From positions 1 through 64,000 of the forward strand of contig JACRKC010000006.1 in the NCBI GenBank assembly GCA_016235555.1: 64,000 nt of DNA, read 5' to 3'. Position 1 is the first letter of the stretch, and each line of letters begins with the position of its first letter. Of this stretch, positions 21,072 to 58,169 are shown piece by piece. The position numbers and the translations under genes are program-made. A model generated the notes under the pieces. That model had not been told where the DNA came from, searched no databases, and worked only from the letters and a program-made list of their open reading frames with translations. This DNA comes from Verrucomicrobiota bacterium (GTDB taxonomy: Bacteria > Verrucomicrobiota > Verrucomicrobiia > Opitutales > Opitutaceae).

Positions 21072-21168
21072 TGTCATTCTGAGCGTAGCGAAGAATCCAG
21101 CAGGAGATGCGAACGCGCTCATCGCTTGCGAGTATCCAAGTGGATTCTTCGCTGCGCTCAGAATGACA
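21072..21168. repeat. Family P8 inverted repeat
   Basis: Arms TGTCATTCTGAGCGTAGCGA and TTCGCTGCGCTCAGAATGAC lie 21,072-21,168, between the DUF1549/1553 stop and the DUF1501 start. A transcript of the operon would contain this hairpin, which might tune expression of the last gene. Confidence 0.8.
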
Positions 21169-24850: not shown

Positions 24851-24869
24851 GAGCGAAAATCGAGAGGAA

Positions 24870-24979
24870 GGAGCCTGCTTGCAGGCGATTTCGTGGCACG
24901 GGTCTCCCGACCCGTGAGTCCGAACACGGGTCGGGAGCCCCGTGCCACTCCAAGCCATCGCCTGCAAGCAGGCTCCTAC
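24870..24979. repeat. Family P10 hairpin with a P9 hairpin nested inside
   Basis: Outer arms GGAGCCTGCTTGCAGGCGAT and ATCGCCTGCAAGCAGGCTCC enclose a complete P9 element at 24,893-24,948 (GTGGCACGGGTCTCCCGACC ... CCCCGTGCCAC). The P10 copy at 53,325-53,400 has a different core. It lies in the 158-bp gap between two co-directional genes of the cytochrome/DUF1549 operon. Confidence 0.85.
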
Positions 24980-26535: not shown

Positions 26536-26854
26536 CGGGTGGGGTGGGGACCGGTTGATGGCAGCGTGGCTGCGGCGACGCGGCAACGAGAAACTCGGGC
26601 TCCGGGCCAACGGGGGTGTAACTCAAACTGAGGTCAGCGATTTGTAGCGGCGCTCGATGACCGCCGAACGAATGCCCTTGGCGCAAAGCCGGCGGTCATA
26701 GACCGCCGCTACAGCCGAGGCATTCGAAAACTGACCTCACTTTGAGTTGCACCCCGGGCCAACCGACGCGCAGCGAATCGCAAGGAACGCAGGGCGAAGT
26801 CGCGCGACCGGCGTAGCGTGTCGCCGTGGCAGAAGCTCTTAACCCCAACCCGCC
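26536..26854. other. 319-bp intergenic region holding a P1 element
   Basis: Apart from the P1 element with its target duplication (26,602-26,763), about 90 bp remain before the DksA-like gene and 66 bp before the cytochrome gene start. These should carry the divergent promoters. No clear promoter motif or other gene is seen. Confidence 0.5.
26602..26763. mobile_element. P1 miniature hairpin transposon, copy 1 (with 10-bp target duplication)
   Basis: Element 26,612-26,753. Termini GGGGGTGTAACTCAAACTGA and CTCACTTTGAGTTGCACC; inner inverted pair GTAGCGGCGCTCGATGACCG / GCGGTCATAGACCGCCGCTA. CCGGGCCAAC occurs directly on both sides (26,602-26,611 and 26,754-26,763), a target-site duplication. 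No coding capacity, so non-autonomous. Confidence 0.8.
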
Positions 26855-34482: not shown

Positions 34483-34613
34483 AGGGAGTGTTTTCAAAAC
34501 TTGTGGGAGGGGCTTTACGCCCCGACGGGCTTCGGTGTGCGCCGGGCGTCGGGGCATAAAGCCCCTCCCACAATTCTTTTTCGCGCAGTTCATGAGTTTG
34601 AAAACACTTCCTA
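34483..34613. repeat. Nested hairpins: family P7 arms around a P6 hairpin
   Basis: Outer arms AGGGAGTGTTTTCAAAACT (34,483-34,501) and AGTTTGAAAACACTTCCTA (34,595-34,613) enclose a P6 hairpin at 34,502-34,572 (TGTGGGAGGGGCTTTACGCC ... AAAGCCCCTCCCACA). The last bases CTA of the outer arm are the complement of the receptor stop TAG (34,611-34,613). The element fills the gap between two minus-strand genes. Confidence 0.85.
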
Positions 34614-41672: not shown

Positions 41673-41830
41673 TCTCGGTGGGGTGTAACTCAAATTGTTG
41701 TCAGTTCTCGAATGCCTCGGTTGTAGCGGCGGTCTATGACCGCCGGCGATGCGCCAAGGGGTTTCGTTCGGCGGTCATAGACCGCCGCTACAAATCACTG
41801 ACATCGGTTTGAGTCACACCCTTCTCGGTG
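41672..41830. mobile_element. P1 miniature hairpin transposon, copy 3 (9-bp target duplication)
   Basis: Element 41,681-41,821, ends GGGTGTAACTCAAATTGTTG and CATCGGTTTGAGTCACACCC. TTCTCGGTG occurs on both sides (41,672-41,680 and 41,822-41,830). The left duplicate includes the first base of the ADP-ribosylglycohydrolase start codon, so insertion was exactly at the gene's 5' end. Confidence 0.82.
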
Positions 41831-43940: not shown

Positions 43941-44018
43941 GTCGTGGACGAAGCGTCGCGCCTCGCAGAAGCGGGGGATTGGGAACACGGAGACGAGGCG
44001 GGACGCCTCGTCCACGAC
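43941..44018. repeat. Complete family P2 hairpin at a gene end
   Basis: Arms GTCGTGGACGAAGCGTCGCG and GGACGCCTCGTCCACGAC with a core GGGGGATTGGGAACACGGAG. The last base is part of CTA, the complement of the receptor stop TAG (44,018-44,020). This copy shows the uninterrupted P2 core that is split at 56,211/56,630. Confidence 0.82.
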
Positions 44019-55192: not shown

Positions 55193-56164
55193 ATGAAACT
55201 CCGCTGCCTCCTCATCGCATTTCACCTCCTCATCACGGTCGCACCCGCTGCGGAGCCCGCGCGCCCGCGCATCGTCGGCGTGTCGCACGCGGCGTTTTTT
55301 GTCAGCGACATGGCGAAGGCGCGGGCGTTTTACGAAGGCTTCCTCGGGTTCCAATCGCCCTACGCGATCCCGCGTCCAAAGGGCGGCGAGCTCGTCTGGA
55401 TCAAGATCAACGACCGGCAGAGCGTGGAGTTGTTTCCCGGCTCCGAGGTCGAGCCCGACGCCGACCGGCTCTACCACATCGCGGTCGAGGTCGAGGATTG
55501 CGACGCGATGCTCGCCTACCTGCGGGCGAAAGGAGTGGCCGGCCTCCCGCCCGCGGCCACCGCCCCACTCGGCCGGATCGGCAACAAAAATTTCACGATC
55601 AAGGACCCGAGCGGCAACGGCGTGGAGTTCGTGCAATATCTGCCCGACGGCTGGACGGCGCGGGAGAAGGGAAAATTTCTCCCCGACACCCGTGCCGCGA
55701 AGCGCATGAGCCACGTGGGCGTGATGGTCGGCCAGCTCGACGCCTCGCTGAAATTCTACGGCGAGTTGCTCGGTTTCAAGGAGACGTGGCGTGGGGGCGC
55801 GGGAAAGACGTTGAGTTGGGTGAATCTCCGCGTGCCGGACGGGGAGGACTACGTGGAGTTCATGCTCTACGAAAAATACCCGACGCTCGATCGCCTGCGC
55901 ACGATGCATCACATCTGTCTTGAGGTGCCGGACGTCGCGCAGACCGGCGCGTTGCTCGCGACGCGTCCGTATCCCGCTGGCAGCAAGCCCGCGACGCCGA
56001 TGAAGGAAGGCGTGAACGGCAAGCGGCAGATCAACTACTACGACCCGGACGGCACGCGCGTGGAAATCATGGAGCCCAACACGGCCGACGGAAAACCGCG
56101 CCCGCCGTCGACCGCGCCTGCACCCGTGGGCGAGCCGCGGCCGGCGGGGACCGTGAAGCCGTAG
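55193..56164 (+). CDS. Secreted protein with two VOC (glyoxalase-like) domains
   Basis: 323 residues with a signal peptide (~1-20, APAAEP). Domain 1 (~29-155): SHAAFFVSDMAKARAFYEGF, LYHIAVEVEDCDAMLAYL, NFTIKDPSGNGVEFVQYL. Domain 2 (~172-295): MSHVGVMVGQLDASLKFYGE, MHHICLEVPDVAQT, NYYDPDGTRVEIMEP. Each keeps the H...H...E metal pattern of the vicinal-oxygen-chelate fold. The proline-rich tail is low complexity. VOC enzymes include dioxygenases, epimerases and lyases; the reaction is unknown and export is unusual for the fold. Its stop abuts a P2 repeat arm. Confidence 0.85.
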   Translation: MKLRCLLIAFHLLITVAPAAEPARPRIVGVSHAAFFVSDMAKARAFYEGFLGFQSPYAIPRPKGGELVWIKINDRQSVELFPGSEVEPDADRLYHIAVEVEDCDAMLAYLRAKGVAGLPPAATAPLGRIGNKNFTIKDPSGNGVEFVQYLPDGWTAREKGKFLPDTRAAKRMSHVGVMVGQLDASLKFYGELLGFKETWRGGAGKTLSWVNLRVPDGEDYVEFMLYEKYPTLDRLRTMHHICLEVPDVAQTGALLATRPYPAGSKPATPMKEGVNGKRQINYYDPDGTRVEIMEPNTADGKPRPPSTAPAPVGEPRPAGTVKP

Positions 56165-56218
56165 TGTCGTGGACGAGGCGTCCCGCCTCGTCGGAGCGGA
56201 GGGTTGGGAACGCGTGTA

Positions 56219-56388
56219 ACTCAAACTGGGCGCATCTCAGTTTCTTGCAGCGAGGCGAAAGGTGGGCCGGCCGCTCCGCGGGCGGCCATAGGCGCGCAGC
56301 ATTCGAAGTGCTCTGGCCGGGCGCGGAGCGCCCGGCCCACCCCCGGGTGCGGCACATTGCAGGAAACTGAGATGCGCCCACTCAAACT
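56219..56388. mobile_element. P3 miniature hairpin transposon, copy 2 (9-bp target duplication)
   Basis: Element 56,228-56,379 (152 bp). Termini GGGCGCATCTCAGTTTCTTG and CAGGAAACTGAGATGCGCCC. ACTCAAACT is duplicated at 56,219-56,227 and 56,380-56,388, inside the P1 end. The interior carries another hairpin (GTGGGCCGGCCGCTCCGC ... GCGGAGCGCCCGGCCCAC) unlike that of copy 1. Confidence 0.85.
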
Positions 56389-56414
56389 GAAGTCAGTGAT
56401 TTGTAACGGCGGTC

Positions 56415-56532
56415 TATTATTACTTCGTTATGCTCACTCTCATCACCGCCGGGTTTTTCAGAGGGAAAGTAACCCAATGGGTTACTTTCGTTTTGGAGTC
56501 GTTTTTGAGAGGAGCGTGACAAAGTAGTGCTA
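56415..56532. mobile_element. P4 miniature element with TA duplication (IS630/Tc1-like ends)
   Basis: 118 bp including TA on both sides (56,415-56,416 and 56,531-56,532), exactly splitting the P1 palindrome GGTC-TA-TGACCGCC. The ends TTATTACTTCGTTATGCTCA and GCGTGACAAAGTAGTGC are diverged inverted repeats (about 21 of 27 positions with one gap). An inner perfect hairpin reads GAAAGTAACCC-AAT-GGGTTACTTTC. TA duplication suggests an IS630/mariner-type transposase acting in trans. Confidence 0.75.
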
Positions 56533-56670
56533 TGACCGCCGAACGAATCCCCTTGGCGCAACGCCGGCGGTCATAGACCGCCGCTACAACCGAGACATTC
56601 GAGAACTGACCTCAGGTTGAGTTACACCCGTGGGGAACAAGGAGACGAGGCGGGACGCCTCGTCCACGAC

Positions 56671-58044
56671 TTACTTCGCGGCGGCGCGGAGGTCGGCGAA
56701 GCGGGTGCGGAGGGCGGCGAGCTGCGGGGCGCGGGCGGGATCGGCGGAGAGATTGCGTTCCTCGAAGGGATCGGCGGCGAGGTCGTAGAGTTCCTCGTGG
56801 TTGAAGTCGGGCCACAGGATATACTTCACCTCCTTGCGCACGAGGGCTTGCGAGGCGGGGATGAAGTCGAGGGAGCGCACGGTGGCGTGTTCGTAGAAAA
56901 ATTCGTCGCGCCACTTCGGCGGCGTGGCGGCGAGGTAGAGCGGCGCGAGGTCGCGGCCCTGCATGCGGGGCGGCACGGTCGAGCCCGTGGCAGTGAGGAT
57001 CGTGGGGGCGAGGTCGACGCTGAGCGTGAGCGCATCGTTGGTCGTGCCGCGTTTCGCGACGGGGAGGCGCGGGTCGCGCACGATGAGCGGCACGCGGATG
57101 CTTTCCTCGTAGGGATACCATTTGTCGGCGAGGCCGTGTTCGCCGTGGAAATAACCGTTGTCACCGGTGAAGATGACGAGCGTGCGATTGAGCACGCCCT
57201 GGGTGCGGAGCTCGGCGAGCACGCGGCCGCACACGGCGTCGGCCTCGGTGGCGAGCCGGTAGTAGTTCTTCATGTATTCCTGGTAGCGCTCCGGGGTGTC
57301 GAAGCGCCACGTCCAGCGGTTGCGGCCCTCGTTCTTCGGATTGGCGATGAAGGGCGGGAGCCGGCGGAAATGTTCGTCGGTCGCCGTCTTCGGCACGGGC
57401 ACCGTGACATCGCGGTAGAGGGACATGCTCTCGGGCTGTGGAAGATACTGCTTAGGGTTCTGGTCTTCGGCGTGCGTCGCGACGAACGCGAGGGTGAGCA
57501 CGAAGGGTTTGTTCTTCGGGCGGGTGCGGAGGAACTCCATCGCGTCGTTTTCGTTTTTCTTGGTGACGTGGATCTCGGTGCCGTCGGGCTGCTTCAACCA
57601 GTGGCGCATCGGGGTGATGCAGTTGGCGCCGAAGTCGAACTGGTCGGCGGGGAATTTGCCGTTGTGCCACTTGCCGACGTGGCCGGTGTAATAGCCGCGC
57701 GCGCGCAGGACGCCGGGATAGGTCTCGGCCCACGACGTGGCGAACATGCCGTTGGCGGGTTGGCCGTTGCGGGACATCCACTGGCCGGTGAAGAGATTCG
57801 AGCGGCTGACCCAGCAGATGGAGGTGGTGACGCAGTTGTGCGTGAAGCGCACGCCCTCGCGCGCGAGTTGATCGAGGTTGGGCGTCTGGACGACGGGGTT
57901 GCCGGCGATGCCGAGCGTGTCGTGGCGCCAGTCGTCGCCGTAGAGGATGAGGACGTTGAGCGGGGGCTCGGACGTTGCGGCGGAGGCGGCGAGCGCGGAG
58001 AGGGAGAGGAGAAGAGAGAAGGCGAGGGGGAGAGAGTGGCGCAT
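56671..58044 (-). CDS. Secreted sulfatase with a CxVSR activation motif
   Basis: 457 residues from the ATG at 58044; signal peptide ~1-23. Opening [17 protein letters not shown] has metal-ligand Asp37-Asp38. The motif position reads TTSIC77-W-V-S-R81-SNLFTGQ. Cys and Arg of CxPxR are kept, but the usual Pro is Val. Other sulfatase features are present: [30 protein letters not shown] (typical of the iduronate/choline-sulfatase group) and [16 protein letters not shown]. It probably desulfates a polysaccharide or small sulfate ester. It is monocistronic, convergent with the VOC gene, and its stop is adjacent to a P2 arm. Confidence 0.9.
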
Positions 58045-58169
58045 GGGGCGGTGGATTTGGAGCGAGGTGAAATGGCAAGGCAAAGGAGCGGCTGAGGTGG
58101 CCGGTTCTCCTCCGCGATTTTCGCCGGGAAATGGGTTGCGGGCGCGATGCGGCTGGCCAGATTACCGGC

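Follow-up and report, generated by a model that had tools for sequence, protein, structure and literature searches.

Nested hairpin elements in one intergenic gap of a Verrucomicrobiota genome: stepwise insertion of MITEs with ISKra4-type ends and REP-doublet interiors

The Locus

The window discussed here is a stretch of 64,000 nucleotides from a draft Verrucomicrobiota genome, and coordinates without a prefix refer to it. Near its end, a gene of the glyoxalase superfamily and a convergent sulfatase gene are separated by a gap at 56165-56670, the contents of which are listed in Table 1. A preliminary description, made from the letters of the window without database searches, had read this gap as four families of hairpin elements, P1 to P4, inserted into one another with the P2 arms outermost. 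Every piece that it described is present, and the P2 arms are 27 nt long and 100% complementary.

Table 1. Features of the gap and its surroundings, with the intact P2 used for comparison
Feature	Coordinates	Strand	Remarks
Upstream gene, glyoxalase/bleomycin-resistance superfamily	55193..56164	+	Pfam PF00903, E 1.1e-31
P2 REPIN, left part	56166..56211	+	REP arm 56166-56192; 27-nt inverted repeat with 56644-56670
Left P1 target copy, GTTGGGAAC	56203-56211		Last bases of the left P2 part
P1 MITE with P3 and P4 inside	56212..56629	+	Begins GCGTGTAACTC, finishes GAGTTACACCC; 141 bp once restored
P3 target duplication ACTCAAACT, left copy	56219..56227		Exact repeat of 56380-56388
P3 MITE, 152 bp	56228..56379	+	Ends GGGCGCATCTCAGTTTC[T/C]TGC; two inverted repeats
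GTGGGCCGG REPIN core of P3	~56261-56341
P3 target duplication, right copy	56380..56388
Left REP of P1 (GTAACGGCGGTCTAT), first part	56403..56417	+	Cut by P4; left CTAT at its end; resumes 56534-56541
P4 element, 112 bp	56418..56529	+	Imperfect ends TATTACTTCGTTATGCTC / CACTACTTTGTCACGCTC; CTAT on both sides
Palindrome GAAAGTAACCCAATGGGTTACTTTC, centre of P4	56465..56489
P4 target duplication CTAT, right copy	56530..56533
Right REP of P1 (CGGCGGTCATAGACCGCCGCTACAA)	56565..56589	-	Inverted repeats; REP also present in other P1 copies
Right P1 target copy, GTGGGGAAC	56630-56638		8/9 match to GTTGGGAAC
Right target copy of P1 and right P2 part	56630..56670	+	REP arm 56644-56670
Downstream convergent gene, sulfatase	56671..58083	-	Pfam PF00884, E 5.6e-46
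Intact P2 REPIN	43941..44018	+	Within-genome empty site

Restoring the Elements

If P3 and P4, together with one copy of each of their duplications, are removed from 56212-56629, a P1 of exactly 141 bp is left, which is the length of the intact copies. It aligns without gaps to 41681-41821 on the reverse strand (129/141 identical), and agrees with 26614-26754 at 127 of 141 positions. Removing P1 in the same manner leaves a P2 of exactly 78 bp, identical at 70 of 78 positions to the intact copy in Table 1; P1 had been said to split the P2 core, and it does. The 9-bp duplication ascribed to a P3 in the left end of P1 was likewise found, exact on both sides. Intact copies of P1 and P2 match the restored ones and act as empty sites within a single genome.

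The restored lengths, the target duplications and the solo copies strongly support an order of insertion in which P2 would be older than P1, and P1 older than both P3 and P4. To that extent the earlier claim that the order can be read directly stands; it does not extend to P3 and P4, whose relative order is unreadable because each sits in P1 independently of the other. The placement of P4 in the P1 hairpin was also correct (it lies in the first REP of P1), but the TA duplication attributed to it was not, for the repeated bases are CTAT here and CTAA at a solo copy in C60.

The preliminary description had hoped for empty sites in related strains. No shared gap was found among 56 relatives, none of them of the same genus: 10 match the upstream gene, and no sulfatase gene adjoins it at the loci examined by tblastn, that is, at 8 of the 14 loci returned (L110-L116, L120). 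With no relative found to have the same gap, relatives yield no empty site. No plasmids carrying the upstream gene were found.

Two other histories of the nest should be weighed at this point. The 505 bp might have moved or formed whole, as a single compound unit, as the perfect outer inverted repeat of the P2 arms, enclosing everything, could suggest. We give this next to no credence: among the 40 top-ranking places that were scored, out of 669 candidates, the composite matches end to end at one place in the genome only and its other matches cover no more than about 210 bp, whereas P1, P3 and P4 are each found alone elsewhere in the genome, with component copies bearing duplications of their own and a solo full-length P3 (L002) that is 98% identical to the P3 of the gap. 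Whole units at unrelated sites without any solo copies, the pattern that the preliminary description had set against its own account, is thus the reverse of what the genome contains. Alternatively, the nest, which is a single locus in a draft assembly of 140 contigs, might be a product of misassembly or of recombination between dispersed repeats, since repeats of this kind do break assemblies. That is very improbable, given three duplications and the exact lengths of 141 and 78 bp, which are expected of insertion and not of recombination or misassembly, and given a second, independent case at C1:80062, where a P3 sits in the end of a P1 with target duplication CATCAGTTT (outside the 1.62-Mb sample defined below).

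Stepwise insertion, then, is the reading that we follow from here, and several further arrangements belong beside it. A P3 lies within a P2-type hairpin at C16:9121 with target duplication GACGAGGCG, also outside the sample. At C19:112747-113136 of the same genome, P1, P3 and P1 are adjacent and a P1 duplication (CGGGCGCGT/CGGGTGCGT) overlaps the start of P3, which suggests that P1 may have gone into the P3 end there, the opposite order to that in the gap. At C48:11098-11199 (L015), a P3 copy stops within its second core REP and unrelated sequence follows, so that another insertion sequence may have entered a REP there. Of the two other nests that had been proposed in the window, the one at 24870 is real: 24867-24979 is a GTAGGAGCC REPIN with a GTGGCACGG REPIN (24893-24948) in its loop. 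At 34483 there is just one plain REPIN (34496-34578).

P1 and P3 as High-Copy MITEs

The preliminary description had proposed following the termini of the elements through the genome. With up to three mismatches and on both strands of the 8.03-Mb genome, the P3 end matches 338 times and the P1 end 325 times, each reversed pattern giving 0 matches; half of the end matches corresponds to roughly 160 copies of either element. The P4 ends occur at four places.

Pairing of ends was carried out in a sample of ten contigs amounting to 1,617,529 bases, a fifth of the genome. It gave 38 P3 and 39 P1 pairs, with 20 single P3 ends and 19 single P1 ends set aside. Most P3 pairs have a size of 93, 115-117 or 152-154 bp, and 27 of the 39 P1 pairs measure 140-142 bp. 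With inverted ends of 21-24 bp, within the 15-30 bp expected of MITEs, short length and no gene, both families are MITEs. A target duplication, called when 8-10 bp are repeated with at most one mismatch, flanks 26/38 P3 and 31/39 P1 pairs; random partners gave 3/760 and 2/780.

A scan blind to the elements, which looked for an exact 9-bp duplication with inverted ends, returned 40 candidates, 19 of them P1- or P3-like and 99-194 bp long. Eighteen of the 40 begin GGG[C/T]G and one more is a P3 variant that begins GAG; the remaining 21, judged by eye, are without a common end.

Of the 77 paired elements, 76 lie outside genes as predicted by a home-made gene caller (87.4% coding). Convergent gaps hold 6 of the 72 assignable elements (five were not assignable) against 19.3% of gap bases, a share computed after removal of the elements (two-sided p 0.016). 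For P3 the figure is only 1/34, and the P3 studied here sits in such a gap. This scarcity would agree with a report that several members of the ISKra4 family tend to insert upstream of promoters (PMC3942029).

P1 ends come in two subtypes, ...ACTCAAACTGAGG and ...ACAGGAAGTGAGG (for example C19:14247-14387 and C34:10147-10287), and the P1 at C26:117004-117143 apparently has one end of each.

Do Hairpins Attract Insertions?

On the strength of the nests, the preliminary description had suggested that these elements prefer to insert into other hairpins. The paired elements do not bear this out. Insertion sites were restored, and gaps of 0, 40 or 70 bases between repeats were bridged to let hairpin loops count; the midpoint of the duplication then lies within intergenic repeats or hairpins in 2, 3 and 3 of 57 cases, against 12.0%, 15.1% and 16.7% of intergenic bases. 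Two of the three insertions in hairpins are those of the gap under study. For 3/57, the one-sided p for a deficit is 0.02 at 15.1% and 0.009 at 16.7%, and that for an excess is 0.97 at 12%; k-mer versions of the test gave 4/57 at a background of 15.2% and 2/57 at 13.0%. These numbers cover the 57 of 77 pairs that have a called duplication, and the mask takes in repeats present at least six times in the sample. The counts do not support a preference for hairpins; if anything, they run in the opposite direction.

One could still imagine transposases that recognise cruciforms or REP palindromes, so that nesting would be targeted, and the nests outside the gap (C1:80062, C16:9121 and the REPIN within a REPIN in the window) are of the kind that this predicts. 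It is nevertheless improbable, with 2 or 3 of 57 insertions in repeats or hairpins, below their intergenic share and with no excess. The nest in the gap is an ordinary outcome of transposition.

P4

The four places with P4 ends (TATTACTTCG/CACTACTTTG) are the gap, C60, C127 and C34. Beyond the two duplications given above, the solo copy at C127 is flanked by AACG/ATCG, no clear duplication, and the C34 copy is one-ended. P4 was considered as a MITE of the Tc1/mariner-IS630 type and rejected, the duplications being CTAT and CTAA and not TA. Its source did not emerge from the 78 other genomes of the order, 8 of which have single end matches at one mismatch, not above the reversed control, and no autonomous partner was found in these or in its own genome.

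The 25-nt palindrome of P4 (at most three mismatches) also occurs without P4 ends at C35:87900, C21:74991, C26:37059 and C20:7513 in the same genome. Two other lone palindromes, GTTTGTCATCTAATGGATGACAAAC and TTGTAACGTATTACGTTACAAAC, have 8 k-mer matches each in the 1.62 Mb.

The Link of P1 and P3 to ISKra4-Type Elements

P3 ends are found around transposase genes in two other places. In G114, a genome of the same family and another genus, they bound, at one and two mismatches, an element of 1477 bp with an exact duplication (CCCACTCAC), and between them two reading frames match the NCBIfam ISKra4 profile (E 3.1e-40 and 4.4e-21). These half-frames score 138.5 and 75.5 bits, each under the cut-off of the profile (NF033572; 205 bits, 422 positions). 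In a Verrucomicrobiota record (L313), perfect P3 ends enclose an intact ISKra4 transposase of 473 aa that scores 209.7 bits; the sequence begins at the end of the element, and the duplication is consequently not readable there.

The genome under study has two intact ISKra4 insertion sequences of its own, with transposases of 478 and 480 aa that score 237.7 and 231.1 bits, above the cut-off. The two proteins share 84% identity, and each is 51-54% identical to that of L313. The duplications of these insertion sequences are AGCGTGGGA, exact, and CCAGCGCCC/CCGGCGCCC, with 8/9 bases in agreement. Their ends resemble those of P3; in L240 they are GGGCGCACATCAGTTTTTGG and GGGCGCAAATCAGCTTTTGA, with 16 and 14 matching bases out of 20. 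P1 ends, for their part, bound an 859-bp stretch of the same genome (L243) that holds a decayed ISKra4 frame, a remnant scoring 79.3 bits over profile positions 321-421, below the cut-off.

An end-pair scan of the 1.62 Mb, together with a genome-wide search that used the C-terminal region of the transposase from G114, revealed neither an intact insertion sequence with P1 ends nor one with exact P3 ends in the own genome. Likewise, no long element with P1 or P3 ends was recognised in the sample, the wider pairs being separate short elements as judged by position. P1 ends are absent from 193 other genomes of the phylum (at most two mismatches), and single matches, at two and three mismatches, occur in 2 of 131 other genomes of the order. 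P3 ends occur, at up to two mismatches, in only 4 of 132 genomes of the order, the own genome included, which points to a patchy spread; outside the own genome, only G114 has an end pair. Viral contigs gave 0 exact matches to the P3 ends.

The IS256 family was examined as another source of P1 and P3 and set aside: PF00872 has 0 matches in the genome, while 6 of 14 control genomes were positive.

The P3 ends of G114 and L313, the two own insertion sequences and the L243 remnant within P1 ends trace both MITE families to ISKra4-type elements. As judged from these sequences, P1 and P3 appear to be derivatives of such elements, the case for P1 being made on a decayed remnant. Both show the traits of the ISKra4/p-MULT group, with duplications of 8-9 bp and inverted repeats in the range of 18-39 bp.

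Shells and Cores

REP doublets usually make up the interior of P1 and of P3. Like P2, these cores have two inverted REPs, G-rich tetranucleotide heads and many copies, as REPINs do; in the 93-bp class of P3, the heads point inward. In the 1.62-Mb sample, each REP was classed as enclosed by a paired element (inside), as having an end no more than 300 bp away (beside), or as away from any end (free). Of 125 matches to the P1 core, 71 are inside (64 in P1 and 7 in P3, the pattern also catching a related short-core REP of P3), 40 beside an end and 14 free. For the long core of P3 the numbers are 24, 5 and 5 (n=34), and for its short cores 19, 8 and 1 of 28 and 16, 7 and 2 of 25. Two REPs are mostly free: that of P2, with 4 inside 93-bp P3 elements, 9 beside an end and 18 free (n=31), and the GTAGCGGCGGGCG REP, with 6 inside P1, 5 beside and 13 free (n=24). 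In five other REP families, no more than one match lies near an end (any end within 130 bp). Two doublets of the P1 type and one of the P3 long type are free, with no ends in their 74-bp flanks.

As to a link of these REPs with a RAYT gene, the genome has ten Y1 transposase loci, two of them short from contig ends. Five are flanked by REPs of other families, namely GTAGGTCGG, GTGGGAGGG, GTAGGGCCGG and GTGGCACGG (L103, L104, L106, L107, L108). The P1, P3 long and P3 short cores were found beside none of the ten in the stretches retrieved, and P2 lies more than 1 kb from one. A further inverted repeat of the window, at 21072-21168, has 46-nt arms (TGTCATTCTGAGCG...AATGACA) that are 80% complementary.

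A scan of named records with the exact P3 end returned at least 100 stretches, and 80 loci among those listed were analysed. They come from 23 record prefixes; 71 have names of Verrucomicrobiota type (Opitutia, Pedosphaera, Limisphaerales and Akkermansia, which we take to belong to the phylum) and 9 are named 'bacterium' only. A further 20 stretches, kept outside the clusters, hold 11 end pairs, 3 with a duplication. Among the named elements of the listed loci, 28/59 have a 9-bp duplication (at most one mismatch), compared with 18/20000 in the control. Twelve of the 80 loci belong to a CAMAUZ record that is titled Akkermansia muciniphila (label as given; L252, L256, L264 and others), and some of these have large composite cores.

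From the 80 loci and the own sample, 97 elements shorter than 450 bp fall into at least 27 core types in at least 17 genomes, the own included; two of the clusters, which combine own cores with a named one, may be loose, and only 15 of the 27 types include an element whose duplication was called. Representatives of 20 of the 27 fold with z below -2 (median -5.3), and 7 lie above -2; random intergenic 90-mers of the own genome, from a pool not cleared of repeats, gave 11/60 below -2 and a median of -0.6. A stem headed G[TG][ACG]G is present in 18/27 types, against a mean of 3.3 and a maximum of 7 in 30 base shuffles. Taken together, the clusters, the folding and the headed stems indicate that one P3 end pair surrounds many unrelated cores, mostly hairpins. 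The named genomes sampled hold few free copies of the cores (JACRKB 4, CAMAUZ 2, CANJNJ 1, four others 0).

We consider it likely that these elements spread by Mutator-type DDE transposition of MITE "shells" that would have taken up REPINs. Beyond this genome, we suggest only tentatively, at somewhat less than even odds, that an ISKra4-type end pair serves as a general vehicle across the Verrucomicrobiota, that it has repeatedly gained hairpin cores, and that REPINs lacking a RAYT are the cargo of DDE elements, with exchangeable cores. The hairpins of P1 and P3 might instead have arisen within the MITEs themselves, where they could serve as two-way terminators, for instance, or as folds that move better. 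Some cores are indeed nearly confined to shells, with no end within 300 bp in 1/28, 2/25, 5/34 and 14/125 matches, and free copies in the named genomes are few. We regard this as unlikely, if clearly worth keeping in view: the P2 REP (18/31) and the GTAGCGGCGGGCG REP (13/24) are mostly free and yet sometimes enclosed, the three free doublets have no ends in their flanks, and headed stems are far above the shuffle mean.

Proposed Course of Events

Our preferred account, to which we assign a probability of about 0.9, is stepwise nested transposition, in which P1 and P3 are ISKra4-derived MITEs moved by transposases of that type and the REPIN cores were probably captured. The REP doublet P2 would have been the first occupant of the gap. 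The 141-bp P1 would then have entered the P2 core, making a 9-bp duplication, after which the 152-bp P3 would have landed in the left end of P1, also duplicating 9 bp. Before or after P3, the 112-bp P4 would have split the first REP of P1 and duplicated 4 bp.

P1 and P3 would be non-autonomous derivatives of ISKra4-family insertion sequences (DDE transposases of the Mutator superfamily). The transposase would bind their inverted ends of 20-24 bp, and the elements would be excised or circularised, a circular intermediate being presumed, and inserted with a 9-bp stagger, mostly into intergenic DNA. The ISKra4 transposases of the own genome may move P1 and P3 in trans, as the similarity of ends would allow. 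Capture of free REPINs by a shell with such an end pair, followed by co-amplification, would be the most likely origin of the interiors.

Relation to Known Systems

Bacterial MITEs include RUP, NEMIS, ERIC and Nezha (PMC3733652). Like them, P1 and P3 fall within 70-300 bp and are non-coding and intergenic with inverted ends, and they also have target duplications and high copy number; they differ in that the P3 ends have been traced to ISKra4, the usual interior is a REP doublet, and one end pair surrounds many unrelated cores. The ISKra4 group was defined in PMC3942029, with inverted repeats of 18-39 bp and, in the wider superfamily, duplications of 8-9 bp. With this family (p-MULT 4; NF033572), P1 and P3 share GGG...CCC ends of about 20 bp and 9-bp duplications, and transposases above the cut-off are present in L313 and in the two own insertion sequences; unlike the family, P1 and P3 have no gene. 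Neither 'MITE' nor 'Verrucomicrobi' occurs in the main text of that paper.

REPINs were defined in PMC3116915. P2 and the usual cores resemble REPINs and their RAYTs (PMC3116915, PMC3733652) in consisting of two inverted palindromes with GTAG, GTGG or GGAG heads. They depart from them in that the P1 and P3 cores are absent near the ten Y1 genes, in the stretches retrieved, and lie mostly inside or beside DDE-type ends with duplications of 9 bp. REP dimers within palindromes have been described in a few bacteria, and O. terrae was noted to have many REPs (PMC3733652). The dimers of A. variabilis and H. neapolitanus are similar in that doublets are regularly enclosed by a second inverted repeat, but the section on them, whose authors state that they made no detailed study, mentions no duplication, transposase family or exchange of cores. 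The MITEtron of Thiomargarita (PMC4853749) also fuses two kinds of mobile element, in that case a group I intron and a MITE and not a REPIN in an ISKra4 shell. PMC9208149 is related prior work. No paper on REPINs inside ISKra4 ends was found in the literature searched, which was mostly without subscription journals.

Conclusions

The gap is a clean stack in which each step of insertion can be reversed in the sequence, and counts over a fifth of the genome correct the idea that hairpins attract hairpins. The part most worth following is the pattern of shell and core: REP-like repeats in this genome are partly cargo within the ends of DDE transposons. The shells offer a possible explanation for the REP dimers in palindromes that were noted in 2013 (PMC3733652). 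If the wider proposal is true, it would provide a testable route by which REPINs without a RAYT could spread, and two unrelated classes of non-autonomous element would merge into one.
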